A model generated the notes under the pieces. The model had not been told where the DNA came from and made no database searches. It worked only from the letters and a program-made list of their open reading frames with translations. A stretch of DNA of 36,652 nucleotides, from positions 10,001 to 46,652 of the forward strand of contig JANTGM010000040.1 in the NCBI GenBank assembly GCA_024762925.1, given 5' to 3'. This stretch comes from Kofleriaceae bacterium. GTDB taxonomy: Bacteria; Myxococcota_A; Polyangia; Haliangiales; Haliangiaceae. Each line of letters opens with the position of its first letter. Position 1 is the first letter of the stretch. This document shows, in pieces, positions 7,890 through 36,652 of this stretch. The position numbers and the translations under genes were made by a program.

Positions 7890-7995
7890 CGAGGCGAGGG
7901 CCCCTGCCCGACGCTTGAATTCCCCCCCCTAACCATCAAGAGCTCAGGGCTCGCATTGCTAGACCGAGAATCGAGCTCAGGCGTATGAAGTGCCC

Positions 7996-8853
7996 ATGCC
8001 AAGCTTCACCACAATCTTCTGCCTGTTCTTTTCTGGGGCCATGAGCACCATGCTTGGATGTTCTTCGACCAGCAGCTCAAAGGATCGGAGCCACATGTCC
8101 GCGCGCGAAACTCAAGCAGAGAAATGGCCGTCGGGGCCGCTGACACCTGTGGCGTCTCACCTTGGTAGCGACGACGAAACTGGAGCACGCATTGCTGAGA
8201 TCCTGCAAACGGCGGACATCAAGTCTGCCCAGGCCGGGTCGCTAGGTTATACGACGAGTGTCGAGGAGAAGGACGCGGAACGTGCCCGGGCCATTCTGCG
8301 AGATGCGAAGGTTCAAGAGAAGCTAAAGCTTGATGTGATCGATGCAGGTGCTGCAACGAGCGGCTCTGCCAGCCCCGAATATCTCAAGCGGCGTACGCCT
8401 CAGCTCTTCATCCAACAGGGTGATCGCATTGAGGAAGCCCCAGACGCAGATCACGCTGTGGCTCGCAGGTATCCGAGCTACGAGAACAAAGGACCTGTCG
8501 CCGACGGCATGCGCGTTACTCTTCTAAGCGAGAAGCTGGTCTACCATGTCAACGAGCCAGTTCGAGTGATCCACGTGTTCGAGGCTACCGAACCTGGTAT
8601 CGACATCCACATCATGGGGCCCAAAATAGCCTATGAGGAGTTTGTGGACGGGGTACTAAGGACTATGAAACCGCCTATGGCGGAGTATCCATGGGTGGGC
8701 GTCTATGATGGAGCAGTCCTCCCGAGCCCCAACGTGGACTACAACTATGAAATCAGCTCCTATACCTTCGGTGAGGCGGGAGAGCATACAATTCAATGGA
8801 AGCCAGGAGAATTGGAGTCGAACGTTTTGGTGATCAAAATCGTCAAGAGATGA
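7996..8853 (+). CDS. Putative lipoprotein of unknown function
   Basis: The protein is ~285 residues. The N-terminus MPSFTTIFCLFFSGAMSTML is hydrophobic and ends at a plausible lipobox MLGC (Cys22), then a Ser/Thr-rich linker. An alternative GTG start lies 6 bases upstream (7990). The mature part has a charged helical segment (EKDAERARAILRDAKVQEKL, ~residues 90-110) and a C-terminal half that looks like a beta-sandwich. In that half, residues 170-285 include VTLLSEKLVYHVNEPVRVIH and a closing GEAGEHTIQWKPGELESNVL, similar in style to Ig-like or CARDB-like domains. I do not recognise the family. It is convergent with the next gene. Confidence 0.7.
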   Translation: MPSFTTIFCLFFSGAMSTMLGCSSTSSSKDRSHMSARETQAEKWPSGPLTPVASHLGSDDETGARIAEILQTADIKSAQAGSLGYTTSVEEKDAERARAILRDAKVQEKLKLDVIDAGAATSGSASPEYLKRRTPQLFIQQGDRIEEAPDADHAVARRYPSYENKGPVADGMRVTLLSEKLVYHVNEPVRVIHVFEATEPGIDIHIMGPKIAYEEFVDGVLRTMKPPMAEYPWVGVYDGAVLPSPNVDYNYEISSYTFGEAGEHTIQWKPGELESNVLVIKIVKR

Positions 8854-16077: not shown

Positions 16078-16830
16078 ATGTTGACAGGTAGCTTGCTCGC
16101 CGCCTCGGTGCTCTTCCTCGTCTCGATTGGAACGGCACTGCTCTCAACCGCGACAGGCATGGGGGGCGGGGTGCTGTTCTTCCTCTCCATCCTCCATTTC
16201 TTCCCATTGGCTGTGACCATTCCGGTCCATGGCTGCGTGCAGATGTTTGCCAACATCATGCGTACCTTCGCTCTCCGAAACCATCTGATTGCAGCGATGT
16301 ACCTGCCATACCTTGTTGGTGCCGTTGTCGGGGTGCTGTGCGTCCTCCAGGTGCTCGAGCATGTGCAGAACGACATCATTCCCTACAGCATCATTCTCGC
16401 CCTCATCATCTACTCGGTCTTCAAGCCTTCGCGAATGCCCGACATCAGGATACCGCTTTGGTCTTTTGGCATCGTGGGTCTCTTTGCCGGCTTTCTCGCG
16501 ATTCTAATCGGCGCCGTAGACCCATTCCTTTCCCCCTTCTTTATTCGCGACGACTTCACCAAGGAGCAAGTCGTCGCCAATAAGTCGTTCATGCAGTCGG
16601 CGATTCACATTGCAAAGGTGCCCGTGTTTTTGCAAATGGGATTCTCGTACGGAGAGTATGCCCTGCTCATCGGCCTGTTAATCACAGGCAGCTTCTTGGG
16701 AATTTTCCTTGGCGTTCGCGCACTGAGCAAGATCAACAGAAGAGTGTTCTTGATTTCGTTCAAGACAATCTTGGTTCTCGTTGGCATTCGAATTTCGTTT
16801 CGTCTTTTTTCGCTTTTCACACAAGGGTAG
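16078..16830 (+). CDS. TauE/SafE family sulfite/sulfonate exporter-like membrane protein
   Basis: This 250-residue integral membrane protein has about eight hydrophobic helices. The N-terminal repeat contains STATGMGGGVLFF, the Gly-rich motif of the TauE/SafE (formerly DUF81) family. The second half repeats it in weaker form (FLAILIGAVDPFLSPFFI). Family members export or move sulfite, sulfoacetate and other sulfur-containing anions. The ATG at 16078 is chosen because the hydrophobic N-terminus starts there; a further upstream start (16051) would add an unlikely leader. The stop is 16 bp before the aldehyde dehydrogenase start, so the two are probably co-transcribed. A safE-like role is inferred from this pairing and is not proven. 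Confidence 0.88.
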   Translation: MLTGSLLAASVLFLVSIGTALLSTATGMGGGVLFFLSILHFFPLAVTIPVHGCVQMFANIMRTFALRNHLIAAMYLPYLVGAVVGVLCVLQVLEHVQNDIIPYSIILALIIYSVFKPSRMPDIRIPLWSFGIVGLFAGFLAILIGAVDPFLSPFFIRDDFTKEQVVANKSFMQSAIHIAKVPVFLQMGFSYGEYALLIGLLITGSFLGIFLGVRALSKINRRVFLISFKTILVLVGIRISFRLFSLFTQG

Positions 16831-16846
16831 TTTCGGAGCAGCACCA

Positions 16847-18223
16847 ATGAGTACCAGTAGCACCTTTAGCGTATCCAATCCCTACGATGGCTCTACCATC
16901 GGAACCTTTCCCTTTGCCGAAGAGGATGAAGTCCAACGCAAGCTTGGGATGCTCACAAAGGGCAAAGCGATCCTTTCGTCGTTCTCCGCACACGAGCGCA
17001 GCACAGTCTTGTCAAGACTCGCCGATCGCATGGAAGAGAAAAGCGAGGAGTTTGCCGCACTCATCACAAAGGAAATAGGTAAGACGATACGTGATAGCCG
17101 CATCGAAATGGTGAGGGCATCCAACACGATTCGCTGCTCCGCCAACGAGGCCAGGGCGGTCGTTGGGGAGGTACTGGACTCTGACGCCTACCCTCCCCAG
17201 CGAAGCAAATGGGGTATCGTGCATCGAAGACCACTCGGAACAATTCTGGCTATCACACCATTCAATTTCCCCATCAACCTCTCCGTGCATAAGATCGGGC
17301 CCGCCTTTGCTTCTGGCTGCCCGGTCTTTTTCAAGCCCAGCCCGCAAAACTACCTCTCGGGAAAGATGCTCACCGAGCTTTGTCATGAAGCCGGCATGCC
17401 TGAGGAGGCGATTCAGTTTTGCATGCCTGACATTCCGGAGATAACAAAGGTGATCGCTGGAGATCAGGTTCAGATCATCAGTTTCACAGGCGGTGTGCCT
17501 GCGTCGAAGGCCATTGCGCGTAACGCAGGAGGCAAGAAACTCCTCTTCGAACTCGGTGGTAACGATCCACTCATCGTCATGCCAGATGGCAACGTGGAGC
17601 TCGCGGTGCAGGCCGCGATCAACCAACGCTTTGGAACAGCAGGTCAGCGGTGCACTGCCGCAAAACGCGTTTTCGTGCACGACTCGGTCTATGAAGACTT
17701 TCGAGAGAAGCTGGTCGCCGCAACAAAGGCGCTGATCGTCGGAGACCCAATGGCTGAGGAGACGTTTGTCGGTCCAGTCGTAAGCGCGCAGGCAGCGGCG
17801 ATCGTTGAGAAGCGCATCGCAGCGGCGATCGCTGACGGGGCGGTGTTGCTCACTGGCGGAACCCGTGACAGCAACCTAATCGCCCCAACCATATTGGAAC
17901 AGGTCTCGCCCGCATCAGAACTGGTAGCGGACGAGACATTTGGTCCAGTCATTCCTCTCTTCCGTTTCAAAGAGATCGATGAAGCCATTGACATCATCAA
18001 CGGGACGGGATTTGGCCTGCAATCGGGCGTCTTCACAAATGACCTAAGAACAATTCGCAAACTCTTTGACAAGCTAGAGGTCGGTGCACTGGCTGTCAAT
18101 GATGGCCCAGGATTTCGAGCGGAACACTTTCCCTTTGGCGGAATCGGTAACAGCGGCCTCGGGCGAGAAGGGGTTCGCTACGCCATGGAAGAGATGACAT
18201 ACCTCAAGACACTCGTCATGTGA
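16847..18223 (+). CDS. Aldehyde dehydrogenase (PhnY/SafD-like)
   Basis: The gene encodes 458 residues of a cytoplasmic NAD(P)-dependent aldehyde dehydrogenase. Visible are the cofactor region ITPFNFPINLSVHKIGPA, the Gly-rich SFTGG, the general base in FELGGND (Glu235), the nucleophile in GQRCTAAKR (Cys269) and the late motif ETFGPVIPLFRF. The RCTAAKR signature and overall pattern point to the phosphonoacetaldehyde/sulfoacetaldehyde/lactaldehyde branch, not betaine- or succinylglutamate-semialdehyde enzymes. With a TauE/SafE exporter 16 bp upstream, sulfoacetaldehyde to sulfoacetate followed by export is a reasonable guess, since the characterised Neptuniibacter SafD-SafE pair does this. No taurine aminotransferase is visible. 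ATG 16847 has GGAG upstream. Confidence 0.9.
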   Translation: MSTSSTFSVSNPYDGSTIGTFPFAEEDEVQRKLGMLTKGKAILSSFSAHERSTVLSRLADRMEEKSEEFAALITKEIGKTIRDSRIEMVRASNTIRCSANEARAVVGEVLDSDAYPPQRSKWGIVHRRPLGTILAITPFNFPINLSVHKIGPAFASGCPVFFKPSPQNYLSGKMLTELCHEAGMPEEAIQFCMPDIPEITKVIAGDQVQIISFTGGVPASKAIARNAGGKKLLFELGGNDPLIVMPDGNVELAVQAAINQRFGTAGQRCTAAKRVFVHDSVYEDFREKLVAATKALIVGDPMAEETFVGPVVSAQAAAIVEKRIAAAIADGAVLLTGGTRDSNLIAPTILEQVSPASELVADETFGPVIPLFRFKEIDEAIDIINGTGFGLQSGVFTNDLRTIRKLFDKLEVGALAVNDGPGFRAEHFPFGGIGNSGLGREGVRYAMEEMTYLKTLVM

Positions 18224-23026: not shown

Positions 23027-23689
23027 ATGCATGAGAACGAAGAAGGTCTGGTCCCTACCCTCATGGAGCTGCCGATCTTTGAGGCCGAGTGGGTGCTCTG
23101 GGTGCTCATTGGTCTCTCCATCGCCTCGGTGGCAGTGATGGCCGAGCGCTACCTCTTCTATCGCAATCACGCCATCGACGTGGATGCAGTTCGCAAGAAG
23201 CTCTCCACTCTTCTGGGCAAGGGTGACTTGCAGGGGGCAGCAAAGTTCTTAGAAAAGTTCGACAGCCTCGAAACCAACACAGTCCTCTTTGGCTTGCGCG
23301 ACTATGCACGAGGACCTGAAGCCGTTGAAGACTTGTTAGGAGCTGCCGCTCGGAAAGAAAAAGCTCGGTACGAGAAGCGCCTGAGTTTCCTCGCAACGGT
23401 CGCCAGCAACGCGCCTTTCATTGGCCTCTTTGGCACGGTCTTGGGAATCATCCGAGCCTTCAAGGACCTTAGCGCGAATATGTCGGAAGCAAGTGGAGCC
23501 GTCATGGGTGGTATCGCGGAATCCCTCATCGCGACGGCAGTTGGTCTGCTTGTCGCCATCCCTGCTGTGATCGCCTACAACATGCTCAAGGGTCGCGTGA
23601 AGCGAATCACCGATGATGGCAACCTCATGACAGCGACTCTTCTATCGTCACTCAAGTCTGTGGCGGTACCAGAAGAAAAGGCGGCTTAG
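23027..23689 (+). CDS. exbB: ExbB/TolQ/MotA-type proton channel subunit
   Basis: The protein has 220 residues and three membrane helices: ~19-41 (VLWVLIGLSIASVAVMAERY), ~123-147 (TVASNAPFIGLFGTVLGII) and ~164-186 (LIATAVGLLVAIPAVIAYNM). The APFIGLFGTVLGI block and the polar Thr in the last helix are ExbB/TolQ hallmarks. With ExbD it forms the inner-membrane proton channel that energises TonB. The start is uncertain: ATG 23027 lacks a clear Shine-Dalgarno; ATG 23063 (MELPIFEAEWV) is an alternative. ExbB rather than TolQ is chosen because tonB and a TonB-dependent receptor follow in the operon. Confidence 0.93.
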   Translation: MHENEEGLVPTLMELPIFEAEWVLWVLIGLSIASVAVMAERYLFYRNHAIDVDAVRKKLSTLLGKGDLQGAAKFLEKFDSLETNTVLFGLRDYARGPEAVEDLLGAAARKEKARYEKRLSFLATVASNAPFIGLFGTVLGIIRAFKDLSANMSEASGAVMGGIAESLIATAVGLLVAIPAVIAYNMLKGRVKRITDDGNLMTATLLSSLKSVAVPEEKAA

Positions 23690-23691
23690 CC

Positions 23692-24102
23692 ATGGCTAGA
23701 AGCGTTTTCGACGATGACGATGACGTCATTGCATCAATCAACATTGTTCCCTTTGTGGACATCGTCTTGGTGCTGCTCATCATCTTCATGATCACATCTT
23801 CTGCGATTTCCAAGGCGAGTATTCGCGTCGACTTGCCAACAGCCGCGAGTGCGGGAAGCGCAGTTGCCAGCACGCTCAATGTCGTTCTCACCGCTGAAGG
23901 AGAGGTCTTCCTCAATGGCAAACCAACGACACACAAGGCCTTGGGGGCCCATGTCGCTCGCGCCTCGTGGAAAGACAAGGATCTTCAAGCAGTCATTTCT
24001 GCGGACACGAGCATCGACTATGGTCGAGTTATTAAGATTATCGACGTGGTGAAGAATAATGGCGTGAAGAGCTTTGCTCTCAACATTCAGCGCGAGATCT
24101 AG
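23692..24102 (+). CDS. exbD: ExbD/TolR biopolymer transport protein
   Basis: The 136-residue protein has an acidic N-terminus (MARSVFDDDDDVIASINIVP), one membrane helix containing the proton-carrying Asp (VPFVDIVLVLLIIFMIT), and a periplasmic domain ending in FALNIQREI. The length and layout are typical of ExbD. It starts 2 bases after the exbB stop, so translation is likely coupled. It functions as the periplasm-facing partner of ExbB in harvesting proton motive force for TonB. Confidence 0.94.
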   Translation: MARSVFDDDDDVIASINIVPFVDIVLVLLIIFMITSSAISKASIRVDLPTAASAGSAVASTLNVVLTAEGEVFLNGKPTTHKALGAHVARASWKDKDLQAVISADTSIDYGRVIKIIDVVKNNGVKSFALNIQREI

Positions 24103-24105
24103 GTC

Positions 24106-25140
24106 GTGAGTGTGAGCACCCAGAAGGGCGAAGCAGCGCCCATCAACTACGCAGAGGCTCGACACCTTGAGCGCGAGGCTGTGCGTAAACGGATTCACGA
24201 GCAAGTTCTGCATCCGATCGATACCCCCTCGCTTTTGCGCGATCCGCTCTTTCACCCAACCTCTCCACTCGACTCGACGATTGGCAGTCTCAAGCTGCTC
24301 TTTGCCGCCATTGCGGTTCATGGATTCATCATCTTGGTGTTTGCTGCGGTCAATGATTTGATGGGCGAGCAAGGAGCCTACAAGCCGCCAGAGCGGGTCG
24401 TTGTACGGGTCATCGAGACGCAGCCACCAGTCCAACCTCTACCGCTACCGGTCGAAGAAGACACCACCGAAGTAGTCGCACCACCACTGCAACCTGACTT
24501 TGTTCCGAAAGACATAACGCCACCAAAGCCCAAGACAGCGCTGCGCAAACGCCCCAAGAAGCCACGCATCGTTAAGAAACCGGATCCACCACCAACGCGG
24601 CCCGACACTGCTCCAGCACCACCACGACGACGTATTGCCGGACTCGACTTTTCCTCAACCACAACTGGCGGAACGGGTCCAGCCTTTGCGACGGGCACAA
24701 CCCGCATGGGTGAGACTGAGACAACTGCGGTTGAACCGAATGTGGCAAAGCAAGAGCCTGATGGCGAAGAAGGCGGAGTGGCCAATGGCAAAAGCTCGGG
24801 AACAGGAACGTCAGCCACTCGCGAACAGCGCACCGCCTCCAACATTCCAACTCGCGACTCCGTCTTCATAAAGCCAAAGCGAAAGAAGCCGAGCAAGCCG
24901 CCATATCCACCTACCCTCAAAGCACGTGATATCGAAGGGGATGTGCAAGTGCGGGTGAGGATCAATGCGAAGGGCAAAGTGACCAAAGTCGACGTTCTCA
25001 AAGGGTCGGGCCACAAAGCTTTCGACGACGCCGCGCGCAGTGCTGCAAGCATGGAGACTTTCACGCCAGCAACGCGCGACGGAAAGGCCGTCAGTTACAC
25101 GCTCTCGTACAGCTACCGATTTAGAATTGAGGAGAACTAG
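24106..25140 (+). CDS. tonB: TonB energy transducer with long cytoplasmic N-terminus
   Basis: The protein is 344 residues from GTG 24106 (3 bases after exbD; a second GTG at 24112 is possible). Residues 1-60 are polar and presumably cytoplasmic; E. coli TonB has only ~12 there. The single TM is ~63-83 and keeps the conserved His72 (AIAVHGFIILVF). A Pro-rich linker follows (QPPVQPLPLPVEED; PPKPKTALRKRPKKPR; PDPPPTRPDTAPAPPRRR), then a Gly/Thr-rich stretch. The TonB C-terminal domain (~255-342) includes KPPYPPTLKARDIEGDVQVR, VLKGSGHKAFDDAA and FTPATRDGKAVSY. It links ExbBD to outer-membrane receptors; the receptor two genes downstream is the obvious partner. Confidence 0.93.
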   Translation: MSVSTQKGEAAPINYAEARHLEREAVRKRIHEQVLHPIDTPSLLRDPLFHPTSPLDSTIGSLKLLFAAIAVHGFIILVFAAVNDLMGEQGAYKPPERVVVRVIETQPPVQPLPLPVEEDTTEVVAPPLQPDFVPKDITPPKPKTALRKRPKKPRIVKKPDPPPTRPDTAPAPPRRRIAGLDFSSTTTGGTGPAFATGTTRMGETETTAVEPNVAKQEPDGEEGGVANGKSSGTGTSATREQRTASNIPTRDSVFIKPKRKKPSKPPYPPTLKARDIEGDVQVRVRINAKGKVTKVDVLKGSGHKAFDDAARSAASMETFTPATRDGKAVSYTLSYSYRFRIEEN

Positions 25141-25141
25141 G

Positions 25142-26104
25142 ATGCCTAGACATCAAAGTGTCGCCACAGCGCTCTGCTTCGTGCTTGCAGCTGCAAGTGC
25201 ATGCACCATTCGTGACGATTCCACGAGAGCCAATCAAATAGAAGGGCTGCGAGTTTTGGCACTTGCATCCGAACCCGCGGACCTTGTACAGGGTGAGACA
25301 ACGACCATCAGCGCACTGGTCTTTGATGAAGAAGAGCGCGCAGTTCGCTACCAGTGGTCTTGGTGCATATCTCGGGGAAGTTCTGAGGAGGGCTACCAGT
25401 GCAACATCTCCGAGGCAGACTTGGAATCGGCGTGGAGTGAACTTGAGACGGGCGTCGAGTTACCAGCGTACGACCTTGGAACGGGCGAAACGGCATCGTT
25501 TGAGATGTTCTTTGAACCACAGCAAGCCCTGGGGCTGTGTGAAATCTTGAGTCGAGATGCGGCAGAGCCGGACCTCCAACTCTTTACGTGCCTATCAACG
25601 CTAGGGCTCAGCATTGAGCTTCGCGTAACAGCGGGATCCGATCAGATTGTAGCCATCAAAGACATCCCCATCTTGATAGAGGGAAATGAGAGAAACCAAA
25701 ATCCCGTCATCGGCCCCAACTTCGAGCGAACGCTTCGCAATGGACCCCGGCTTGAAGACACCGATCCCTTTCGACTTGAGGGAATCTACGATGTCGTTGC
25801 AGATGTCGATGCATCGCAGAGTGAGACCTTCTTGCCAGCAGCGCGAGATGGCCTTCCGCCGCCAGAGCCAAGGGGCGAGTCGCTGTTCTTGAGTTGGTTC
25901 GTGACGGTTGGATCGACCCATCGCAAAGGAGAGCAAAGAACGTCCTACTTCGATGAGGGATCAATCGAGTCACTCACGGAGAACACATGGGATATGCCCT
26001 TTGAACGAGAAGACTCAAGCGCACGACTCTTCTTGGTGCTTCGCGACGAGAGAGGCGGAACGAGTTGGGCCGAACATACGTTCGCACTGGAAGAGGCGCG
26101 ATAG
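25142..26104 (+). CDS. Lipoprotein of the TonB operon, unknown function
   Basis: This 320-residue protein starts at ATG 25142, one base after the tonB stop. The signal (ATALCFVLAAASAC) ends in lipobox ASAC with Cys21. The mature part looks beta-rich, with an Ig-like N-terminal section (IEGLRVLALASEPADLVQGE, TTTISALVFDEEERAVRYQW), four or more cysteines (WCISRG, GYQCNIS, GLCEILS, LFTCLSTLG) and a C-terminal strand block ending RLFLVLRDERGGTSWAEHTF. I do not recognise the family. Its place between tonB and the receptor gene suggests a surface or periplasmic accessory of the uptake system, for example a substrate-capturing lipoprotein; this is inference. Confidence 0.8.
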   Translation: MPRHQSVATALCFVLAAASACTIRDDSTRANQIEGLRVLALASEPADLVQGETTTISALVFDEEERAVRYQWSWCISRGSSEEGYQCNISEADLESAWSELETGVELPAYDLGTGETASFEMFFEPQQALGLCEILSRDAAEPDLQLFTCLSTLGLSIELRVTAGSDQIVAIKDIPILIEGNERNQNPVIGPNFERTLRNGPRLEDTDPFRLEGIYDVVADVDASQSETFLPAARDGLPPPEPRGESLFLSWFVTVGSTHRKGEQRTSYFDEGSIESLTENTWDMPFEREDSSARLFLVLRDERGGTSWAEHTFALEEAR

Positions 26105-28780
26105 ATGCCCGGCCGTAGTACCAGCATACTCGCGCATCTCAGTGGCGTGGTGTTGCTCTTGGTGATGACCACCAAACTCTCGCACGCACAAGACGCGCCC
26201 ACAGATCCAGCCCCCGAAGAGCCGCAAGCCGACGAGAAGCTCACACCACCACAGTTGAAGAAGGATGTGCAGCCGGTCTATCCCACTCGTGCCAAGGAAG
26301 AGGGCATTGCGGCCGAGGTACTGCTTGATGTTGATATCGACGCAGCGGGACGGGTAGAACGCGCAGCTGTTGTGCAGGGTGCCACAGCGCAAGGATATGG
26401 TTTCGATGAAGCGGCGATTGCCGCAGCAAAGCAACTCCTCTTCGAACCTGCCCGTGTTGGAAACCAAGCAATTCCGGTGACGATCAGCTATCGCTTTCGC
26501 TTTGTACCCGACGTTGTGGAAGAGCCGACCGTCGCCGTACCGGTCCCCGAGGCACCACCACCGCCAGCTCCAACCGGCGAACTTAGTGGCCGTCTAATCG
26601 AGCGCGGAACTCGCCTTCCCATCATTGGCGTGCGTGTAACGATCTTTCGCGGCGCGGGCGACAGCGCAGAGGGGTTCGAGACCGAGACTGACGACACGGG
26701 CACCTTTCTCTTCAAACAACTCGGCGTGGGGACATGGCGAATCCTTGCGGATCCAGAAGGCTACTACCCTCTTCGCGTTGAGGAGGGCGTATCGGAGAAT
26801 CAACGCACAAAGGCGAGCTACCGCATCGAGAAACAATCCTACAACAGTTATGACGTAATCGTTGAAACCAGCCAGGTTGCGCGCGAAGTGAGCCAAGTTA
26901 GCATCAGCGCAAAACAAGCCGAGAGAATCCCAGGGACCTTTGGCGACGTCCTTGCCGTAGTTCAGAACTTTCCCGGTGTGGCGCGAACCCAAGGGGCCGA
27001 CGTCGTGGTTCGCGGCTCGGCTCCCGAAGACACCAGAGTCTACGTCTCTGGCATTGACGTTCCGATCATCTATCACTTTGGTGGGCTGCGCAGCGTGCTT
27101 CCCGTTGGCATGGTTGAGCGCATCGACTTCTACCCTGGCAACTTCTCGGTGGAGTACGGACGCGCAACTGGTGGCATCATCGATGTCGACCTCAAAGATC
27201 TATCTCCCAAGAAACTTGGTGGCTATGCCGACGTAAGCATCCTGGACACAAGCCTCTACTTGGAAGTGCCAATCAACGACAAAGCTGCCATCGCGGTTGC
27301 TGGCAGACGGAGCTACATCGATGCCATCTTGGGGCCGCTCTTGCCAGACGATGGCACAACCTTCGTCTTGCCGCGCTACTACGATGGACAGGTGCTCGCA
27401 TCGTATCGACCAGCTCCCGCTCACCGTCTCGAGACCTTCTTCTTCTACTCCGATGACAAGTTTGAGGTGCTCTTCGAAGAGCCCGTTGGTGATGAGCCGA
27501 ATAGCGTGCCGATTACCGATATCGGCTACACAGTAGATTTTGCGCGAGCCATTACGAGCCACCACTACATTCCCGACAAGAAGCTCTCAAGCGAACTCAA
27601 GCTCTCCGTTGGGCGTGACCGCCTAAATTTCAACCTCGGCGAAACGTTTTTCATTCGTCTCGAAAACCTACAAGTCCAACTGCGAGAGACTGCCAAGTAT
27701 CAACTCTCGGATACGCTCACTCTCCGGGGAGGTCTCGATTACTTGCTGGCGCATGTCGACTACTCGATTCGCGCTCCTGTAGTCGACCCAAGCGATGATG
27801 ACGACAATGGCCCACCAAGACTCGAAGAAGAAGACTTCATCTTCAGTGAAGCAACGGGGACCTCGCATTCCACCGCGGGCTTCATACAGACTGAGTACAC
27901 CCCCATCGAGCAGCTCTTACTCATTCCAGGGCTTCGCCTCGATCACTTCTCCCGAACAAGCCAGTTTGCCGTCTCGCCACGGGCTACCGCGAGACTCAAC
28001 CTGAATCCGTTGTGGGCGCTCAAAGCGGGTGTTGGACTCTTTGTCCAGGAAGCGCAATTCGAAGAGTCTGACCCCGCATTTGGCAATCCTGATATAGAGA
28101 TCGAGAAGGCCATGCACTACTCCTTTGGTGCAGAGTACCGACCCAAGAAGCACATCAAGCTCGAGCTAACAGGCTTTTACAAAACGCTACGCGATCTTGT
28201 TGTAGCCACTGATGACGTTCGTGAGGTTGATGGTGTGAGCGAGCCACTTCGTTACAACAACAACGGGGCTGGCCGTGTAGTTGGCTTGGAAGTCTCCGCG
28301 CGACATGAGCTCGCAAAAGGCTTCTTTGGCTGGGTCGCTTACACGTTGAGCAGAGCGGAACGCAAGGATGATGGCGATACTAACTATCGTCTCTTCGACT
28401 ACGATCAGACCCACATTCTCACGGTCATTGGCAGCTACAAGCTTCCTCGCAACTGGGAGGTCAGTAGTCGCTTCCGGCTCGTCTCAGGAAATCTCTATAC
28501 GCCCTATGTTGGCGCTGTTTACAGCTCCGATGATGACACCTACCTAGGCATTCGAGGTCCAACGAACTCAGCAAGGGTTGGCGCCTTCAATCAAATCGAC
28601 TTTCGCATCGACAAGAAGTGGATTTACGACACTTGGATGCTCAACGCATACCTCGACATTCAAAACGTAGCAAACCGCACCAACCCAGAAGGCATCAACT
28701 ACAACTTTGACTTCTCGGAAACAGAAGTTACCAGTGGGCTACCCATTGTTCCGGTCCTTGGCCTTCGAGGGGAATTCTAA
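26105..28780 (+). CDS. TonB-dependent receptor with N-terminal TonB-C-like domain
   Basis: This 891-residue outer-membrane receptor begins directly after the lipoprotein stop. It has a signal peptide (1-28, ending SHAQ), then a TonB C-terminal-type domain at ~50-133 (QPVYPTRAKEEGIAAEVLLD, VDIDAAGRVERAAVVQG, FDEAAIAAAKQLLFEPA, VTISYRFRF). A Pro-rich linker follows (~140-157), then a carboxypeptidase regulatory-like domain (~158-235), the plug (~265-370, FGDVLAVVQNFPGVARTQGA, VVVRGSAPEDTRVYVSGIDV, VEYGRATGGIIDV) and a 22-strand-type barrel. The barrel ends in Phe (VLGLRGEF). The substrate is unknown. The TonB-C-like domain in the receptor itself is unusual outside Myxococcota-type bacteria; it may mediate binding within the periplasm or self-gating. 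Confidence 0.93.
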   Translation: MPGRSTSILAHLSGVVLLLVMTTKLSHAQDAPTDPAPEEPQADEKLTPPQLKKDVQPVYPTRAKEEGIAAEVLLDVDIDAAGRVERAAVVQGATAQGYGFDEAAIAAAKQLLFEPARVGNQAIPVTISYRFRFVPDVVEEPTVAVPVPEAPPPPAPTGELSGRLIERGTRLPIIGVRVTIFRGAGDSAEGFETETDDTGTFLFKQLGVGTWRILADPEGYYPLRVEEGVSENQRTKASYRIEKQSYNSYDVIVETSQVAREVSQVSISAKQAERIPGTFGDVLAVVQNFPGVARTQGADVVVRGSAPEDTRVYVSGIDVPIIYHFGGLRSVLPVGMVERIDFYPGNFSVEYGRATGGIIDVDLKDLSPKKLGGYADVSILDTSLYLEVPINDKAAIAVAGRRSYIDAILGPLLPDDGTTFVLPRYYDGQVLASYRPAPAHRLETFFFYSDDKFEVLFEEPVGDEPNSVPITDIGYTVDFARAITSHHYIPDKKLSSELKLSVGRDRLNFNLGETFFIRLENLQVQLRETAKYQLSDTLTLRGGLDYLLAHVDYSIRAPVVDPSDDDDNGPPRLEEEDFIFSEATGTSHSTAGFIQTEYTPIEQLLLIPGLRLDHFSRTSQFAVSPRATARLNLNPLWALKAGVGLFVQEAQFEESDPAFGNPDIEIEKAMHYSFGAEYRPKKHIKLELTGFYKTLRDLVVATDDVREVDGVSEPLRYNNNGAGRVVGLEVSARHELAKGFFGWVAYTLSRAERKDDGDTNYRLFDYDQTHILTVIGSYKLPRNWEVSSRFRLVSGNLYTPYVGAVYSSDDDTYLGIRGPTNSARVGAFNQIDFRIDKKWIYDTWMLNAYLDIQNVANRTNPEGINYNFDFSETEVTSGLPIVPVLGLRGEF

Positions 28781-29679
28781 TGCACATGCGATTCATCTCC
28801 CCTCTATTGGTGTTCGGTATGGCGACCGCATCGGCGCAGGCGCAGTCTTCAGAACAACTCCCAGTTCCAACCGAACCACGTCCCATCGATGAGACGTCGA
28901 CAGAGCCGGATGCACACGAGCCCGTCGCTCATGAGTCAACACCAATCGTCGACACGACATCTCCCTCAGAGTCACGCACCGACGTGACTCCTAACGAACA
29001 GGAGTTGTTCACGCCTGCGACCACCAAGCCTGTTGCGAAAACATCGTTAGACGCCCCAACCAAGGGTGCAGAGAAAATCCGTGAAGAGCCTGCAGTAGCG
29101 AAGCAGAAGGCCAAGAAAAGCGATTCCGCTCTCGCGAAACCCTCGCCCCGTCAAGGCCACTACATTTCCCTTGGCTTTCATGGAACGAGTGCGATCGCAA
29201 ACGATCGTGATCGTGGGCGGCGCGGGCCTGCCTTTGGAACCGGCTACTCACTGCGCTTGGGGGAGCGCATTATGGACCGATTGGATCTGGGACTAGCGTT
29301 CGCATATGCCAGTGTTGGCGGTGATGACCCTTGGAGTTTTGGTCGCCTTACCGTGCACGCACAGGGCTACATCACCGAAAAAACCTTCGCTCATCTAGGC
29401 TTTGGGTTTGGCGCGGCAGGTGGGGCGGATCCAGAGGACCCGGACTTTTCCCGGGGACGCTTTGGCGACGTCTACACCGCAGGCGCTGGTCACAACTTCT
29501 ACCTCTCCGATGCAGGGAGAAGCGGAGGTTGGATTGTCTCGCCTACCATAACCATGGAGTATGGACGCGATGACACATTTCCCAACGCGGGTCTTTGGGT
29601 TGGTGTTGAGATTAGTCGTTGGTGGGGAATCCCGCGCAACCAACTCGACCTTGACTTCGACGAAGCCTACAAACGGTAG
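28780..29679 (+). CDS. Small outer-membrane beta-barrel protein of the TonB operon
   Basis: The protein has 299 residues: signal peptide (MHMRFISPLLVFGMATASAQAQ), a long Pro/Glu/Thr/Lys-rich periplasmic segment (~24-125, including REEPAVAKQKAKKSDSALAK), then an OmpA/OmpW-like eight-strand barrel (~126-299: HYISLGFHGTSAIANDRDRG, LDLGLAFAYASVGGDD, FAHLGFGFGAAGGADPED, NAGLWVGVEISRWWGIP). The last residues DEAYKR follow the final strand. The ATG overlaps the receptor stop by one base (TAATG), making it the last gene of the coupled operon. The basic, Lys-rich periplasmic stretch could contact peptidoglycan or the TonB apparatus. No exact family is recognised. Confidence 0.8.
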   Translation: MHMRFISPLLVFGMATASAQAQSSEQLPVPTEPRPIDETSTEPDAHEPVAHESTPIVDTTSPSESRTDVTPNEQELFTPATTKPVAKTSLDAPTKGAEKIREEPAVAKQKAKKSDSALAKPSPRQGHYISLGFHGTSAIANDRDRGRRGPAFGTGYSLRLGERIMDRLDLGLAFAYASVGGDDPWSFGRLTVHAQGYITEKTFAHLGFGFGAAGGADPEDPDFSRGRFGDVYTAGAGHNFYLSDAGRSGGWIVSPTITMEYGRDDTFPNAGLWVGVEISRWWGIPRNQLDLDFDEAYKR

Positions 29680-29756: not shown

Positions 29757-32700
29757 ATGTCACTGTCATCCCAGCGTTTGCGCGAGTTGCCATACCCGGC
29801 GCAAATCTCCGCGATTGATGCGGAGCTTGAGGCCGGGCGAGTCGCGGAGCTGCTTGCTGAGCTCTGCTCGTATCGCGATCACCAACCACTCGCTTACGCC
29901 TTAGCTTCACTTGCGAGAAACGGTGTCCTTGAAGAAATCGACCCCACACTCATCACTGCACTGCTCGACATACCGGATATCGGATTGCGACGAGTCCTGC
30001 AAGGCTTAGACGAAGTAGAGACACCGAGGTCCTTCACAATGGCCCTTGCCGATGGGGCGTGGCAGCTCGGGCTAGAGCGCATTGCGGCCGTTGCAATGAT
30101 TGACCGCTGGCTGAAGAATACGGCACCGCGTGACCGTGCGGAGCGTGCAGCGGCTGGGCTTGCTTTCTGTGAAGAGCAACTCTCGAAGGGAGCTGTCGAG
30201 CAACTGCCTGCAAGTCATCTCATGCGCCTTCCAGGCACAGCGTTCTCCTCACTCGCCGATCGCGCGCGCAAAGCGGGCTGTCTTGAGCCGTGGCTCGCAT
30301 GCCAGAGACAGTTCGCGCAACAAATGCTAGAGATGCTCGAAGCACAGCCTAAGTCTCTTAGCCAGGCGAATGCAGAAGAACTCTTAGCCAGACAGGTGTA
30401 CACCGACCCAGGCCACTTTCTCGTAGAGCTCTTGCAGAATGCTGACGATGCTGGCGCAGAGCTGTGGCAAGTGGAAGTCTTCGATGATCGGATCGAAGTG
30501 GAACACAATGGGCCCCCCTTCGACGCCCTCGACGTTGTGGGCATCCTCTCGATCGGGCAAACTACTAAGAGCAAAGAACAGATCGGCTTCTTTGGCGTGG
30601 GCTTCAAGTCTGTCTACGAAATCTGCGAACGACCTCAGCTGTACTCTGGCGTCTTCAATCTTGAAATCGCCGATGTCTCGATTCCGAGGCCCCTCCGCCC
30701 AATCGATACACTCCCCGATGGACATACCAGGCTTGTCTTGCCGCTGCGCCGTGGACCAGACGCGAGCATTTCACCAAAACAGCTCTTCCAAACCCTTGCC
30801 GAACTCCCCGCTGAAGTCGTGCTTACCCTCAACTCAGTACGCGAGCTCAACCTGCGCTACGGCCCCCAAATCCGGCATGTGCGCGGCCGTAATGAGCCCA
30901 GTGGACGCTTTCGAATTGAGGACGGCGAAGCCAGCAAGCGCTACGTTGTAGAACGCACCGACGCACAGTATGACGTTTCCAGAGGCGCACATCGCGCGAG
31001 CCACACACCTGTCTTGGTTGCCATCCCACTAGATCAAGAGGGCCTACCCTCACCAAGCATTGGCGCCGCAACCATCTTTAGTTATTTGCCAACACGTGAG
31101 CGCTCTGGGCTGCGTGTATTGGTTCACGCGCACTTTGACCTGCCTGTCGATCGAGAGCGGATCGATCTAAGCTCCGAGTGGAATCAATGGGCACTAGGAA
31201 AGGCTGGGGTTCTTCTTGCCAAAGCCATCGCGCGCCTGTGCCACGAAAAGGCACAAGGCGACAAAGCTGCAGACAAGGTACTTGATGCGTTGCCGGGCAT
31301 CGTCTCTCTGCCGAGCGAGCTCAATCATCCCGCGTTTGAAGCGGTTGGTAGCCAGTTGCACGGGCTGGCATTTCTTCCTGGCGCGAATGGAGAACGCCAT
31401 CCCGCCACCAACGCTCTTCTATGTGAAGATGCTCGATTGCGTGACGCTTTCTCGACCGTGCCACTACAGGGAGGTCGCCACGTACTGAGGGCCATTGGTG
31501 AACGCGCTGCTGAAGTTGCCCGTTGGCTGGGTGCGGTGGACCTAGAAATCTCGGCAGTCGTCGATGAAATCGTAAGACACGCAAAGCACTTACCTGAGGG
31601 GGCGTTGTTTGCTCCTCCTTGGGACTCACAGCTAGCGAATGTCGCAGTAGCCCTAGCAGACTCCTCCGTTCCCTTGGATGTGCTGCGCGCTGTGGCCTGC
31701 CTACCAGACTCTGGTGGACGCGCTCGCGCCCCTGGCGAGCTGCGTCGCGCAACAGAGGAACTAAGAGTATTCCTTAGGCACCTCCAACCTCTGGTGCGCA
31801 CAGACTTGGAAGCACCAAAGTGCTCCTCGTTTCTCGACACCTTGGGTGTTGCCACCTCCACGGTTCGCGATCTTGTTTCGCTCTGCGCAGAACCCAAGCC
31901 CGCACAGCAGCTGATCGACAAAGTAGGTGTGCAGGCGCTGCTTGGATTCTTGCAGACAGCCTCCCCCGCCGAGCTGGAGCTTATTGACTTCGCGGCCATC
32001 GTTCCGAATGACAGGCATTCGCTGAGTGCCATTGGGGACGTTTGGATTACTGGTTCGACCCCCCTTGCTGGACTTGTTCGCAGAATGCCAGTTCGGCCGC
32101 CTCTCGTTGCGCAGGACACAGAAAAACTCCTAGCCCCATCCCTCCGTGCTCTTGGGTGTCGAACGCTTGACACCACGGCGTTGCTAGACTGTCTGGAGAA
32201 CGAGAGTCTTCGGATTGAAGGCGAGAGTCTCTCCGCCCTCCACACGGCTCTCGACAGCACTTCAAACGACATCACTCCCAATGTCGCCAAACGCCTAGCG
32301 CAGACTTGCATCTTTCCTGTCCGCGATGCCAGTCCCCGGCCGCTGGTGGGGGAAGCAGTCGCGAGAATCCCACACGACGAAGAGCTAGCTCAGCTTTGGC
32401 CAGATCAGCCTTGGCTCGAAGCAGATGTCGCAGCTCTGCCCTACATTCGCACCCTGGGAGCTCCAGTGATTGGTCCCGAGGACTTGGCAACTTCGTTGCT
32501 TAGCCAACCTGTTGGCCAGCAGCTGCGAGCAATTTTCTCTTATCTCGCACGCCACGCTCTGGCTCTTTCCACACAAACGATTGAGGACTTGGTGCAAGCG
32601 GCGATTTGGCCCGATATACAGGGAAAGCTTCGTCCGCTCGATGAACTCCGCAGCCCCGCCGAGCACCCATCGGTGGCGGCGCTTTACGAGTGCTGGCCCC

Positions 32701-35498
32701 GCGCCATGACTATGGACCAAGACAACTCGCCCGGCTCTGCACTTCACTTGGCAAGCGCACTCCGGGTAGCACATCGCATTGTGGCCCCTGACTTCGCAAC
32801 AGCTATTGAAGACCTGCAAACGGCCAGTGCTGTGGATCGTGGGGCCTACCGCAGTGACAAGGAACTTGAGCTAGGCAATCCGCACGTAGACCAGGTCGTA
32901 GCAACGCTACTAAACGATGCGGCTCAAGCGTTACCCAGAACAGTTCTTACTGGCATTTGCGAGGCGCCGATATTCCTTTGCCGTGATGGCGAGCGCAGAC
33001 GATTGGGAGCCGCGAATGCGGGCCAGCGAGGCCGCGCACTTCGGGTCCCAAAGCTCCTCGTCGCAGTGTTTGAGTCCTTTCGGTTCAACGTGCTTGAGCC
33101 CGAGTCTGCACAGAAGCTAGAGCCACTGCTCGATGCACTTCTCTTGCGCCCTGCCACGTTGGTTGACCTAGTTCGCGAGGCACATGTTGGCGAACACGAG
33201 CTGCAAGAGGAATCAGCGGCACAGTTTCGGCAAGCCCTCTGCCGCGACATTGCAAGCCTGGACAAGACGCTCCGAGCCGAGATTTCAGAAATTGCGATGT
33301 GGCCATGCAACGGTGCCCTTGTTCCAGCAAACCAGGTGGTGCGCGGTCGCTCCTTGGACGCGCTACTTGAGAACGTCGATCTCAGTCGCGCTGCACTAGG
33401 TCTCCACGAGGCTGCCCTGCTCGAACCCGTTGCCGAGAACGAGGCCGAGATGCTCTGCACACACGTGCAATTCGCCTCGCCTGTACAGCTCTTGGCCGAG
33501 ACCGTGCAACGCATCGCGCTTGTCGGTGCCCCTCTATCCTCCCAACACGACGCTCTGGCAGACACACACAGAGTTGCCCGCTTGGCTGCAGCCTTAGCAA
33601 GACACCACTCAGAGCCATGGACGCTGCCAATCTCCGTTAATGCAGTTGGTGAGCTTGTCGCGCAGCCGCTCCTGCTCGCCACAGAGGATGAGTTGTGTGC
33701 TTGCGCCGGCTTGCCTCTGACTGAGGAATTGGCTGATGCAGATTGGTCCCGCATCGTTGGGGAACACGACACGCATCTGCAGTCTCTTGGCACTCGGCGC
33801 TTACTCGACGCGATGCGCGATGTGTCGGGCGATTCGCAACAAGCCGATTCGCACCAGGCTCTCCACAGCATCGAAGCTCGGGCAGCATTCTACCGATGGC
33901 TTAGACTGCATGCCGAAGAAATCTCACGGGATGATCAGAGCCTTGGCCTATTGGGCAAGAGCGCTGTCATCCTTTCTGAGGAAGGAGTCCTTCGAACTCC
34001 TCGCGATCTACTTTTTGACTCCTCGCTCCCCGAACTAGGCATCGACTGGAACCCGTCTAGGGAAATTACTGAACCCCTACAAGACTGGCTACGTTCGAAC
34101 TACCGCCCAGCATCGAAACAGCTGAGACCAATTGTTGATCATATGCTGGAAGCGATTGATGCGGCTGCCGACAACGGAAACGCAGACCGCCTCGCCAACG
34201 TCCTGCAACATCTCGCGAAGATCCTTCGAGCCGGCCACGACTCCGACGAGCTGGAGACACTGGCAAAGCGCTTTAAGCTGCGCAAACGACTGCGCGTTGA
34301 GACGGAAGATGGACAGTTTGCGTATGCCAGGCGCCTCTTGGCTGCCGAACCACTCGACGCCGACCTCGTCCCTCGCTTTGCCCTTGCGCCACCTCTGAGT
34401 GCCGCGCATCGGTATCGTCAACCGCAAACACTCAGACTCCTACGGGCAGCAGGTGCGGCCGATGAACTGAGCGTGGCAGCATTGCGCAATTACCTACAAG
34501 GCAATGAACGCTGCAACGGAAACGACTCCGATCTGGCGCTTGCATGCTATGTCGGAAGTGCGGCTCATCGACAGCCATCACTTCGAAGTGACCTCGACCT
34601 ACGTCGCCGCTCGTGGCTGCCAGATGCGTTGGGAGAGCTGCGAGCACCCAATACGCTGTACTGGCAGACCCCGGAACTTGAAGCGCTCATTGGTCACAAT
34701 CCGCGTCTCTACCTGCACCCAGAGTTTGTCTTACGCGCTCCTGAATCACGCAAGTGGCTACCGCTGCGGAACGCCAAAGATGCAGCAATTTCGGATATTG
34801 CGACCCACCTAAGGACAAGCGCTGCGAAGGGGCAACCTGCCGGGGCCAACGCGTTGGCATGGTTGGACATGCAAATCGCGGAGAATCATATTGCCGCAAA
34901 AGAGGTTCGCGCTGCACTCGCCGATGTGCGCATGCTCGTTGACGACCATGGACAAATGCGTCGCGCTTCAGAACTTGTGGTATCCGGTGGCAAGAGACTA
35001 TTCGGAGAGCGACGAGGAAACTGGTCGGAAGGCATGCAGCTTCCGCGTCTTGCCGAGGCGCTGGGAATTTCCAGGCGTCCACAGGCCAAGGATATTGTGG
35101 CGTTCTTCGCGCAAGTGCATCGCGAGTTCGTGGCGTATCCGGAGGTCCTTCAATCCGATACAGCGCTTCTCGAAACGCTCCCTCGATGCCTCGACACACT
35201 CATCGAACTGGGCGGCCGCAGTCCGCGACAGCTCCCCGCCACTGCCATCAAGCACGGCGTGCCGGTCTTGGTAGTCTTGCCTTCACCGGGACAGCGAATC
35301 AGCCTGCCTGAGCACGAAGCCGAGGCAGAATTCGTGCTGCTTGTACCAGCACTCCTGATGCTCCTGCTTGAGGACACCGCGCTCTTTATCCTTACGGGCT
35401 GCCTTACCCACCACGATTCGGTCCCGAATAGGCTCACTCGTCTCCGGGTGCTTCAGCTCTCGCTCGTAAGATCGAGACTCCCCCTTGTACGTGTTTGA
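29757..35498 (+). CDS. Giant sacsin/Hsp90-like GHKL ATPase, C-terminus apparently chimeric
   Basis: The gene encodes 1913 residues from ATG 29757. TTG 29724 is a real alternative, with GGAGG 6 bases upstream. Residues 1-200 are helical. The sacsin-type Hsp90-like ATPase follows: N box HFLVELLQNADDAG (Glu224, Asn228), DRIEVEHNGPPF in place of DxGxG, TTKSKEQIGFFGVGFKSVYE (276-289, the G2 lid), then a barrel/helix region to ~400. The remaining 1500 residues are Leu/Ala-rich helical repeats, with no nuclease or protease motif that I recognise. The protein is cytoplasmic. Large ATPases of this kind are found in bacteria as chaperone-like or defence-related proteins, but the role here is unknown. 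From about 35310 the frame is antisense to a plasmid-type gene, so the last ~60 residues are probably foreign. Confidence 0.85.
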   Translation: MSLSSQRLRELPYPAQISAIDAELEAGRVAELLAELCSYRDHQPLAYALASLARNGVLEEIDPTLITALLDIPDIGLRRVLQGLDEVETPRSFTMALADGAWQLGLERIAAVAMIDRWLKNTAPRDRAERAAAGLAFCEEQLSKGAVEQLPASHLMRLPGTAFSSLADRARKAGCLEPWLACQRQFAQQMLEMLEAQPKSLSQANAEELLARQVYTDPGHFLVELLQNADDAGAELWQVEVFDDRIEVEHNGPPFDALDVVGILSIGQTTKSKEQIGFFGVGFKSVYEICERPQLYSGVFNLEIADVSIPRPLRPIDTLPDGHTRLVLPLRRGPDASISPKQLFQTLAELPAEVVLTLNSVRELNLRYGPQIRHVRGRNEPSGRFRIEDGEASKRYVVERTDAQYDVSRGAHRASHTPVLVAIPLDQEGLPSPSIGAATIFSYLPTRERSGLRVLVHAHFDLPVDRERIDLSSEWNQWALGKAGVLLAKAIARLCHEKAQGDKAADKVLDALPGIVSLPSELNHPAFEAVGSQLHGLAFLPGANGERHPATNALLCEDARLRDAFSTVPLQGGRHVLRAIGERAAEVARWLGAVDLEISAVVDEIVRHAKHLPEGALFAPPWDSQLANVAVALADSSVPLDVLRAVACLPDSGGRARAPGELRRATEELRVFLRHLQPLVRTDLEAPKCSSFLDTLGVATSTVRDLVSLCAEPKPAQQLIDKVGVQALLGFLQTASPAELELIDFAAIVPNDRHSLSAIGDVWITGSTPLAGLVRRMPVRPPLVAQDTEKLLAPSLRALGCRTLDTTALLDCLENESLRIEGESLSALHTALDSTSNDITPNVAKRLAQTCIFPVRDASPRPLVGEAVARIPHDEELAQLWPDQPWLEADVAALPYIRTLGAPVIGPEDLATSLLSQPVGQQLRAIFSYLARHALALSTQTIEDLVQAAIWPDIQGKLRPLDELRSPAEHPSVAALYECWPRAMTMDQDNSPGSALHLASALRVAHRIVAPDFATAIEDLQTASAVDRGAYRSDKELELGNPHVDQVVATLLNDAAQALPRTVLTGICEAPIFLCRDGERRRLGAANAGQRGRALRVPKLLVAVFESFRFNVLEPESAQKLEPLLDALLLRPATLVDLVREAHVGEHELQEESAAQFRQALCRDIASLDKTLRAEISEIAMWPCNGALVPANQVVRGRSLDALLENVDLSRAALGLHEAALLEPVAENEAEMLCTHVQFASPVQLLAETVQRIALVGAPLSSQHDALADTHRVARLAAALARHHSEPWTLPISVNAVGELVAQPLLLATEDELCACAGLPLTEELADADWSRIVGEHDTHLQSLGTRRLLDAMRDVSGDSQQADSHQALHSIEARAAFYRWLRLHAEEISRDDQSLGLLGKSAVILSEEGVLRTPRDLLFDSSLPELGIDWNPSREITEPLQDWLRSNYRPASKQLRPIVDHMLEAIDAAADNGNADRLANVLQHLAKILRAGHDSDELETLAKRFKLRKRLRVETEDGQFAYARRLLAAEPLDADLVPRFALAPPLSAAHRYRQPQTLRLLRAAGAADELSVAALRNYLQGNERCNGNDSDLALACYVGSAAHRQPSLRSDLDLRRRSWLPDALGELRAPNTLYWQTPELEALIGHNPRLYLHPEFVLRAPESRKWLPLRNAKDAAISDIATHLRTSAAKGQPAGANALAWLDMQIAENHIAAKEVRAALADVRMLVDDHGQMRRASELVVSGGKRLFGERRGNWSEGMQLPRLAEALGISRRPQAKDIVAFFAQVHREFVAYPEVLQSDTALLETLPRCLDTLIELGGRSPRQLPATAIKHGVPVLVVLPSPGQRISLPEHEAEAEFVLLVPALLMLLLEDTALFILTGCLTHHDSVPNRLTRLRVLQLSLVRSRLPLVRV

Positions 35499-35705
35499 GA
35501 CGAAAAGCGGCATCGACTCGGTGTACAGCTCAGCTCGGAATGGCCGGGTGGCCACATTGGGCATCGGGACGATATTGCAGCGCCCATCCTCAACCTGCTG
35601 AGCAAGATCAGCCTGCACTGCAGCCTCCTGGCGCTGTGCCTCTCCCTGACGGGCTCGCTCACGGGCAGCCTCGCTCTTGGCTGCAAGGTCAATAAATTCA
35701 CTCAT
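35283..35705 (-). pseudogene. Truncated plasmid replication initiator-like gene
   Basis: From ATG 35705 (AGGTG a few bases upstream) the frame reads MSEFIDLAAKSEAARERARQ (helical, basic), then NIVPMPNVATRPFRAELYTE, MPLFVSNTYKGESRSYEREL and KDKERGVLKQEHQECWYK. The MPLFV...YERE and ERGVLKQ.HQ patterns recall RepA/TrfA-type initiators, which start this way before their winged-helix domains. The frame ends after ~140 residues (RepA-type proteins are ~280-350), and its last ~15 codons run into the sense strand of the ATPase gene. It is thus a 5' fragment cut at the junction near 35.3 kb. Its position downstream of a ParA/RHH module supports a plasmid origin. The family call is tentative. Confidence 0.5.
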
Positions 35706-35716
35706 GTACACACCTG

Positions 35717-35975: not shown

Positions 35976-36609
35976 CAAATAACTCCTTCACTAGTGTGGC
36001 TACCTCAACCCGCGCCTTTGTCCACCGAGGGTATTCCAGGACACCGAGCCCCATCCTCTGAGCCTCCCGATAGGGCGAGCGCTCATAAATCACAGAATCC
36101 ATCACCCTGAGCTGAGGTGCCGAATCCGCCAAAAACTCGCGGGCATCGTCTGCGTCGGTGTTCTTGCGCCCAACAGGCGCCCGACTCACGAGCGCACACG
36201 CCTGTAGCCCGGGGTTTATCCCCTTCGCCCCAGACACCAGCTCGCCGATGTGCGGCATCGTCTCAAGATCTGCCTGACTAGGCTGCACGGGAACGACGAA
36301 CTGATCTGCAACGAGCATCCCGGTTCGCAGCTCGTCACGGTCGGCGCCGCATACATCAATAACGACATCCCCGTAGCGGCCTGCCAGATCGCGGACTGGG
36401 TCAATTAGATTCCCGCGAGCCTGCAGGCAGTGGATATTTTTGACGGTCTCTATCGAGCGTCGTCGCGCCATCCACTTGGCCGTTGTTCCCTGCACGTCAG
36501 TGTCGAGCAGAACGATGTCTCGCCCCTCCCTGGCCAGCGCAACCGCAACATTCTGGGCAAGCGTTGACTTCCCTGTGCCGCCCTTTTGGGCTCCGAATAA
36601 GATGATCAT
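35947..36609 (-). CDS. parA: ParA/ParF-type partition ATPase
   Basis: The protein has 220 residues from ATG 36609 (MIILFGAQKGGTGKST); an upstream frame extension would overlap the palindromes and is unlikely. The deviant Walker A motif KGGTGKST (both Lys), Walker A' DTDVQGT and Walker B VVIDVCGAD are present, with no N-terminal HTH, so it is a type Ib, ParF-like ATPase. It segregates low-copy plasmids by moving on the nucleoid. The RHH gene follows with a 29-bp overlap, and palindromes lie directly upstream. It is of the type found on plasmids and integrated elements rather than the chromosomal parAB system. Confidence 0.92.
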   Translation of the reverse strand: MIILFGAQKGGTGKSTLAQNVAVALAREGRDIVLLDTDVQGTTAKWMARRRSIETVKNIHCLQARGNLIDPVRDLAGRYGDVVIDVCGADRDELRTGMLVADQFVVPVQPSQADLETMPHIGELVSGAKGINPGLQACALVSRAPVGRKNTDADDAREFLADSAPQLRVMDSVIYERSPYREAQRMGLGVLEYPRWTKARVEVATLVKELFDVEVQRHTA

Positions 36610-36623
36610 AAACCCTCGAATCA

Positions 36624-36652
36624 AACCAAACCGGTTCACTCCGGTTCGAACC
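36624..36652. repeat. AACCGGTT palindromes upstream of parA
   Basis: AACCAAACCGGTTC (36624-36637) is an exact copy of 35717-35730. It is followed by a degenerate CCGGTT (36641-36646) and the palindrome GGTTCGAACC at the very end of the window. The array may continue beyond the window. It lies just upstream of the parA ATG, as expected for the operator/centromere of a ParF-ParG type system. Confidence 0.65.

Follow-up and report, generated by a model that had tools for sequence, protein, structure and literature searches.

Whether a long open reading frame with an intact ATPase and no recognised effector domain encodes a complete, self-sufficient system or the remnant of something larger is the question raised by the window, by which we mean the whole stretch of 36,652 nucleotides analysed here, carried on contig C40. 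The frame at 29757-35498 is real (ATG start, 1913 residues, no internal stop in the translation), and the original prediction saw in it a candidate undescribed single-gene anti-phage system. The computational evidence favours, at a probability of about 0.7, a different reading, in which the frame holds the leading portion of a giant bacterial sacsin-transglutaminase protein cut by a plasmid-like element, and the intact protein is an ATP-driven client processor. The features concerned are collected in Table 1.

Table 1. Coordinates of the disrupted gene, its domains and its surroundings in the window
Feature	Position	Strand	Basis
ExbB-ExbD-TonB, 354-aa ORF, TonB-dependent receptor, 299-aa ORF	23027..29679	+	Directly upstream; not conserved beside homologues
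Sacsin-transglutaminase gene, native portion (first ~1860 codons)	29757..35337	+	831 bits to G003; junction 35336-35340
N-terminal domain, ~195 residues, common to the family	29757..30340	+	Alignments; no Pfam match
Sacsin/Hsp90-like GHKL ATPase and region of the conserved DRER arginines R466/R468	30341..31200	+	Pfam, NCBIfam, alignment, PDB sequence matches
Repeat scaffold, eleven ~107-aa units	31434..34976	+	AlphaFold2; profile comparison between repeats
Non-native ORF tail of ~53 codons, reading the neighbouring plasmid-type gene in antisense	35338..35498	+	Sequence comparison
Plasmid-type gene, N-terminal 124 codons, cut at the junction	35338..35711	-	G122/G039 ORF comparison; no Pfam or PHROG match
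ParA-like partition ATPase in the adjoining element, reaching the contig end	35947..36639	-	Pfam; PHROG ParA-like partition protein, 1.4e-39

The sacsin/Hsp90-like identity of the ATPase was correctly recognised. Residues 215-306 match Pfam SACS (E 2.7e-12, 47.4 bits vs a cut-off of 32.8) and residues 220-295 match NCBIfam P_loop_sacsin (E 3.4e-22, 78.7 bits vs a cut-off of 50), so the protein scores above the curated cut-offs for the sacsin N-terminal ATP-binding-like family (NF047352 / PF25794). The ATPase motifs are also intact, as predicted, every mappable residue of the sacsin ATP-binding list (PMC9880540) being found: E224, the catalytic Glu, followed by N228, D231, N251, F255, D259, K271, the GxxGxG glycines G277/G280/G282, F283 and T324. 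These residues are kept in 29 of 29 aligned sequences or nearly so, and R466 of the DRER motif, which is invariant in the same alignment, appears to be the counterpart of sacsin Arg474, the catalytic arginine. The closest PDB sequence matches of the region are the sacsin SR1 crystal structures 5v44-5v47. Membership of the Hsp90/HtpG family is rejected on full-family scores, the HSP90-family model giving no match for the window protein and 20 bits, vs a cut-off of 455, for the homologue in genome G003 (locus L062).

Beyond the ATPase, what had been described as about 1500 residues of unassigned helical sequence proves to consist largely of eleven tandem repeats of ~107 residues. Each unit combines helices with a single beta hairpin (at residues 649, 747, 853, 951, 1073, 1180, 1293, 1405, 1513, 1621 and 1726; unit spacing 98-122 residues) in an AlphaFold2 model of residues 560-1740 with a mean pLDDT of 88.1 and a pTM of 0.44, the latter being expected for a long flexible solenoid. 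Profile comparison supports homology between many pairs of repeats, with probabilities of 90-98% especially among the first six, while later units match more weakly and unit 7 is an outlier. Of the structure prediction and fold search proposed for this region, the latter gave weak HEAT/ARM-type matches of the solenoid in the PDB (TM about 0.1), and assignment to a known fold was rejected.

The architecture recalls animal sacsin (SACS; SIRPT/SRR repeats; PMC3629688, PMC9880540), with which it has in common an Hsp90-like ATPase, the same ATP-binding residues and long repeat regions thereafter. However, animal sacsin carries three SIRPT/ATPase modules together with DnaJ and HEPN domains, whereas the family described here has one ATPase module and a C-terminal transglutaminase-like enzyme; a Pfam search of the family for ubiquitin-like, DnaJ and HEPN domains gave no match, and the animal architecture was rejected.

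The C-terminal enzyme is the feature by which intact relatives differ from the window ORF. A family scan with one genome per species placed 36 loci in this branch before dropping sharply to ATPase-only relatives. The alignment comprised 28 of the 36, all full-length at 2193-2985 aa, with members in Myxococcota and other 'Deltaproteobacteria', Planctomycetota, Obscuribacterales, Eremiobacterota and unplaced MAGs; among the hits is one from a named strain, Paraliomyxa miuraensis SMH-27-4 (locus L080). The family is sparse, with about 10 carriers among 282 genomes sampled from the phylum, and in the tree, where phyla cluster but are partly mixed, the window sequence is sister to the G003 homologue (support 100). 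Every full-length homologue extends into a beta domain and a transglutaminase-like domain, and the Cys-His-Asp triad is kept in 28 of 28. For G003, the C-terminal 515 residues contain a Pfam Transglut_core match and are modelled as a beta domain plus a transglutaminase fold (pLDDT ~95 for the latter), whose best PDB fold match is TgpA (6g49, E 4.5e-8); this likeness emerged from fold comparison only, a sequence search of the transglutaminase part against PDB chains having given no match. The triad of the transglutaminase-like superfamily (PF01841) is present in the homologues, as well as in a piece on contig C195 discussed below, whereas the window ORF itself lacks this domain.

TgpA of Pseudomonas aeruginosa, reported in PMC3507681 to act as a transglutaminase in vitro, is a membrane protein whose enzyme domain lies in the periplasm, whereas the present enzyme is fused to an ATPase and lacks a clear membrane segment. 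Kyte-Doolittle analysis of the homologues revealed no convincing hydrophobic segment, so a TgpA-type membrane-anchored periplasmic enzyme was rejected and the family enzyme is probably cytosolic. At a separate locus, L076 (G102:C647, 9911-18523), a single in-frame TAG divides a family member into ORFs of 991 and 1879 aa, possibly another disrupted copy or a sequencing error. The open-access literature returned work on sacsin in animals and in HEPN and defence contexts, and on transglutaminase-like effectors in other settings; no description of a bacterial sacsin-transglutaminase fusion was found there, which is weak evidence of absence but agrees with the suggestion that the protein may be undescribed.

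Comparison with these relatives locates the break. The window ORF aligns with the G003 homologue at 831 bits, far above chance, across residues 7-1863, and the alignment ends near residue 1851-1863 (~1860, nucleotide ~35338); relatives of the same class have ORFs of 2193-2885 aa vs 1913 here. At the nucleotide level the junction lies at 35336-35340, and the DNA beyond 35336 is a plasmid-type gene on the minus strand. This second gene is itself incomplete, as its window piece ceases to match the G122 and G039 ORFs at its residue 124-125, while in those genomes the window piece and a piece from contig C28 are contiguous within one intact ORF (352 and 405 aa, stop to stop). Native homology ending at ~1860 and the plasmid-type gene ending at 124-125 together indicate two genes cut at one junction near 35338. 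A simple C-terminal frameshift was rejected, since the tail is the antisense of another gene and no downstream frame continues the family; the tail also contains the sole strongly hydrophobic stretch of the ORF, the native part having no membrane segment by Kyte-Doolittle analysis. The window ORF is thus the N-terminal ~1860 codons of a disrupted giant family member, not a complete protein. The missing effector is a result of the cut, as intact homologues end in the transglutaminase-like domain; with a plasmid-like element abutting and cutting the gene, the effector was lost rather than never present, the notion of an effector-less single-gene system is rejected, and the window copy is probably a pseudogene. 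A remaining activity of the truncated protein, as an ATP-driven holdase chaperone lacking its enzyme, is very improbable: the 5.6 kb frame without a stop and the intact ATP site are in its favour, but an open frame is also expected after a recent break, the triad is kept in every full-length homologue, and the ORF ends in antisense sequence with a hydrophobic segment.

The adjoining DNA had been called a plasmid module, and the plasmid-type ParA gene beside the ORF bears this out (Pfam, PHROG). The cut plasmid-type gene resembles a replication initiator by eye only; because Pfam, PHROG and PLSDB searches gave no match, a Rep identity was not upheld. Additional truncated copies of the ParA N-terminus lie beside AACCGGTT-type repeats at other places in the genome (window 36556-36652; C129 13675-13928; C224 1-97).

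Elsewhere in the same genome, C28 (locus L051) carries the halves of the plasmid-type gene at 494-871 and 16659-17462, ~16 kb apart and in circularly permuted order, as if the element had opened inside this gene on integrating. The gene is thereby broken at two sites of the genome (window 35336-35711 and C28), with breakpoints at most 46 bp apart. Positions 35336-35381 (46 bp) are 96% identical to C28:17417-17462, where the plasmid-type gene continues differently. C28 also holds an intact serine recombinase (7913-8578, PF00239), and C195 (locus L056) and C88 start, each at positions 1-312, at the same base inside copies of such a recombinase, which points to several related elements in the genome.

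A search of the window's genome with the C-terminal 515 residues of G003 identified C195:4469-5161, 48% identical to G003 2104-2335, a transglutaminase-like piece of 235 residues with Cys, His and Asp intact. Upstream of it, C195:4039-4484 matches C28:10765-11206 at 81% identity, and C195:3-307 matches C28:8255-8559, within the serine recombinase, at 90%, the fragment before the transglutaminase piece having the same order and orientation as in the C28 element. The succession of plasmid-type gene, ParA, recombinase and fragment agrees with a C28-related element lying between two sacsin parts, and we infer that C40 and C195 hold halves of one gene. No counterpart of G003 1823-2104 (~280 residues) was found in the genome, and the element is not assembled through. 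On C195 the beginning of an element gene runs in frame into the transglutaminase piece (4220-5191), and the resulting 324-aa ORF could encode a free-standing enzyme.

These contigs also bear on whether the junction is an artefact, C40 having been misjoined to a plasmid contig while the cell carries an intact gene, which would leave the family and its mechanism unchanged. Such an error is conceivable, since C40 stops at a repeat 1.3 kb beyond the junction, the last 97 bp of the contig also occur at the start of C224, and the common starting base of C195 and C88 implies that repeats did break the assembly. It is nonetheless unlikely: two contigs carry truncated gene parts beside element sequence in consistent order and orientation, the second copy, on C28, has its own break in this plasmid-type gene no more than 46 bp away, and the sequence common to C28 and the break, 46 bp at 96% identity, was judged too short and inexact for the usual bridge. 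A biological junction is likely.

Upstream, the statement that no partner gene lies in the same direction was mistaken, as exbB, exbD, tonB, a 354-aa ORF, a TonB-dependent receptor and a 299-aa ORF occupy the same strand, ending 77 bp before the ATG with no terminator-like site in the gap. Despite this closeness, the TonB operon was rejected as a partner, being absent beside homologues. The N-terminus of its receptor (26105-28780) is itself fused to a TonB C-terminal domain (PF03544), and ExbB, ExbD and a separate TonB lie alongside. Within the family, recurrent neighbours are confined to close relatives, save for protein kinases, whose distance from the gene varies; the branch homologues keep no partner gene, so the protein probably acts alone, as the idea of a single gene had implied.

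An anti-phage role for the intact protein, with the ATPase sensing infection and the transglutaminase-like domain killing the cell or destroying viral proteins, is improbable. It draws on the match of the ATPase to PADLOC TmtA models (3.3e-59), the occurrence of ATPase-only relatives in defence clusters, the patchy distribution of the family in the phylum, and the presence of transglutaminase-like peptidases among conflict-system effectors (PMC8195603, PMC3710099). TmtA proteins, ATPase-only bacterial sacsin proteins such as one of 1519 aa in G009, have the sacsin-type ATPase domain in common with the family; however, they are mostly of ~1000-1500 aa, lie in R-M/DISARM/BREX-like clusters and align solely through the ATPase part, to which the TmtA matches are confined, and TmtA membership was rejected for want of a full-length match. 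A known giant defence chain combining an NTPase with a transglutaminase-like peptidase follows the same single-chain plan, but it has helicase, HEPN, nuclease and wHTH domains, whereas the present family has a GHKL ATPase, a solenoid and no defence context.

Genome neighbourhoods separate the two groups. From gene names partly read from sequence, the G003 member presumably adjoins nadA and the rpsB-tsf-pyrH-frr region, L091 and L096 what we take to be IMP dehydrogenase (guaB), and the Eremiobacterota members presumably acyl-CoA dehydrogenase/enoyl-CoA hydratase genes. In counts of PADLOC family matches, which are not independent systems and carry no formal statistic, 140 neighbours of the branch matched 126 families at least once, generic kinases coming first with 2 members each, vs 581 families for 140 neighbours of the ATPase-only relatives, where DrmD, mad2, BrxHI, DpdE, methyltransferases and PglZ came first with 4-6 members each. 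The G009 protein, for instance, belongs to a cluster (L049/L050, G009:C146) that also contains nuclease-like genes and, next to it, a type IIG restriction-modification enzyme and a Snf2-type helicase. The proposed neighbourhood survey therefore divides: ATPase-only relatives lie among DISARM/BREX/R-M-type genes, whereas the branch lies mostly among housekeeping genes, in synteny common to related genomes and with no visible defence enrichment. The TmtA association with genes such as DrmD, BrxHI and PglZ is absent from the branch, where generic kinases (2 of 140 each) are the most that appears. Housekeeping contexts had been named beforehand as counting against a defence role, and they largely prevail here; the anti-phage link is unsupported, and on present evidence the defence link belongs to the ATPase-only branch.

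Returning to the client-processing reading, an intact member would be a single cytosolic chain in which an N-terminal domain of ~200 residues precedes an Hsp90/sacsin-type GHKL ATPase with the DRER arginines, followed by an extended solenoid built of helix-hairpin repeats of ~107 residues, then a beta domain and finally the transglutaminase-like cysteine enzyme. Analogy with Hsp90 and sacsin suggests that ATP binding would shut the N-terminal clamp; the solenoid would serve as the client-binding surface and present a client protein to the C-terminal Cys-His-Asp site, which might cut the client or modify a glutamine. Bacterial members of the transglutaminase-like superfamily are mostly thought to be peptidases. 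The modelled fold does not tell protease from transglutaminase, and cutting, cross-linking or deamidation would all be possible; client and chemistry alike are what we infer, and ATP coupling across domains ~1500 residues apart is assumed, while family, domains, triad, repeats, junction, C-terminal piece and contexts come from the computation itself. ATP-regulated client processing as the function is put at slightly less than even odds, and the architecture and the truncation are rated as more probable. In the window's genome, the plasmid-like element would abut and replace the gene from ~35338, the enzyme domain persisting on C195. The intact protein would then be a stress or quality-control machine, not an anti-phage system.

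More broadly, the window illustrates how a cut gene may be mistaken for an effector-less system. To our knowledge, the known bacterial ATP-dependent proteases are all AAA+-driven; a protease under the control of a GHKL ATPase, should the enzyme prove to be one, would be unlike them. More tentatively, the family may represent a single-chain class of ATP-dependent proteases or protein-modifying enzymes driven by an Hsp90/sacsin-type GHKL clamp rather than an AAA+ ring, in which a ~1200-residue solenoid would hold the client and a fused transglutaminase-like cysteine enzyme would process it. How sacsin, a protein of human disease, handles its clients is unsettled, and in a bacterial sacsin-type ATPase joined to a catalytic cysteine, exchange of that Cys for Ala may provide a client trap with which to probe the sacsin-type clamp.
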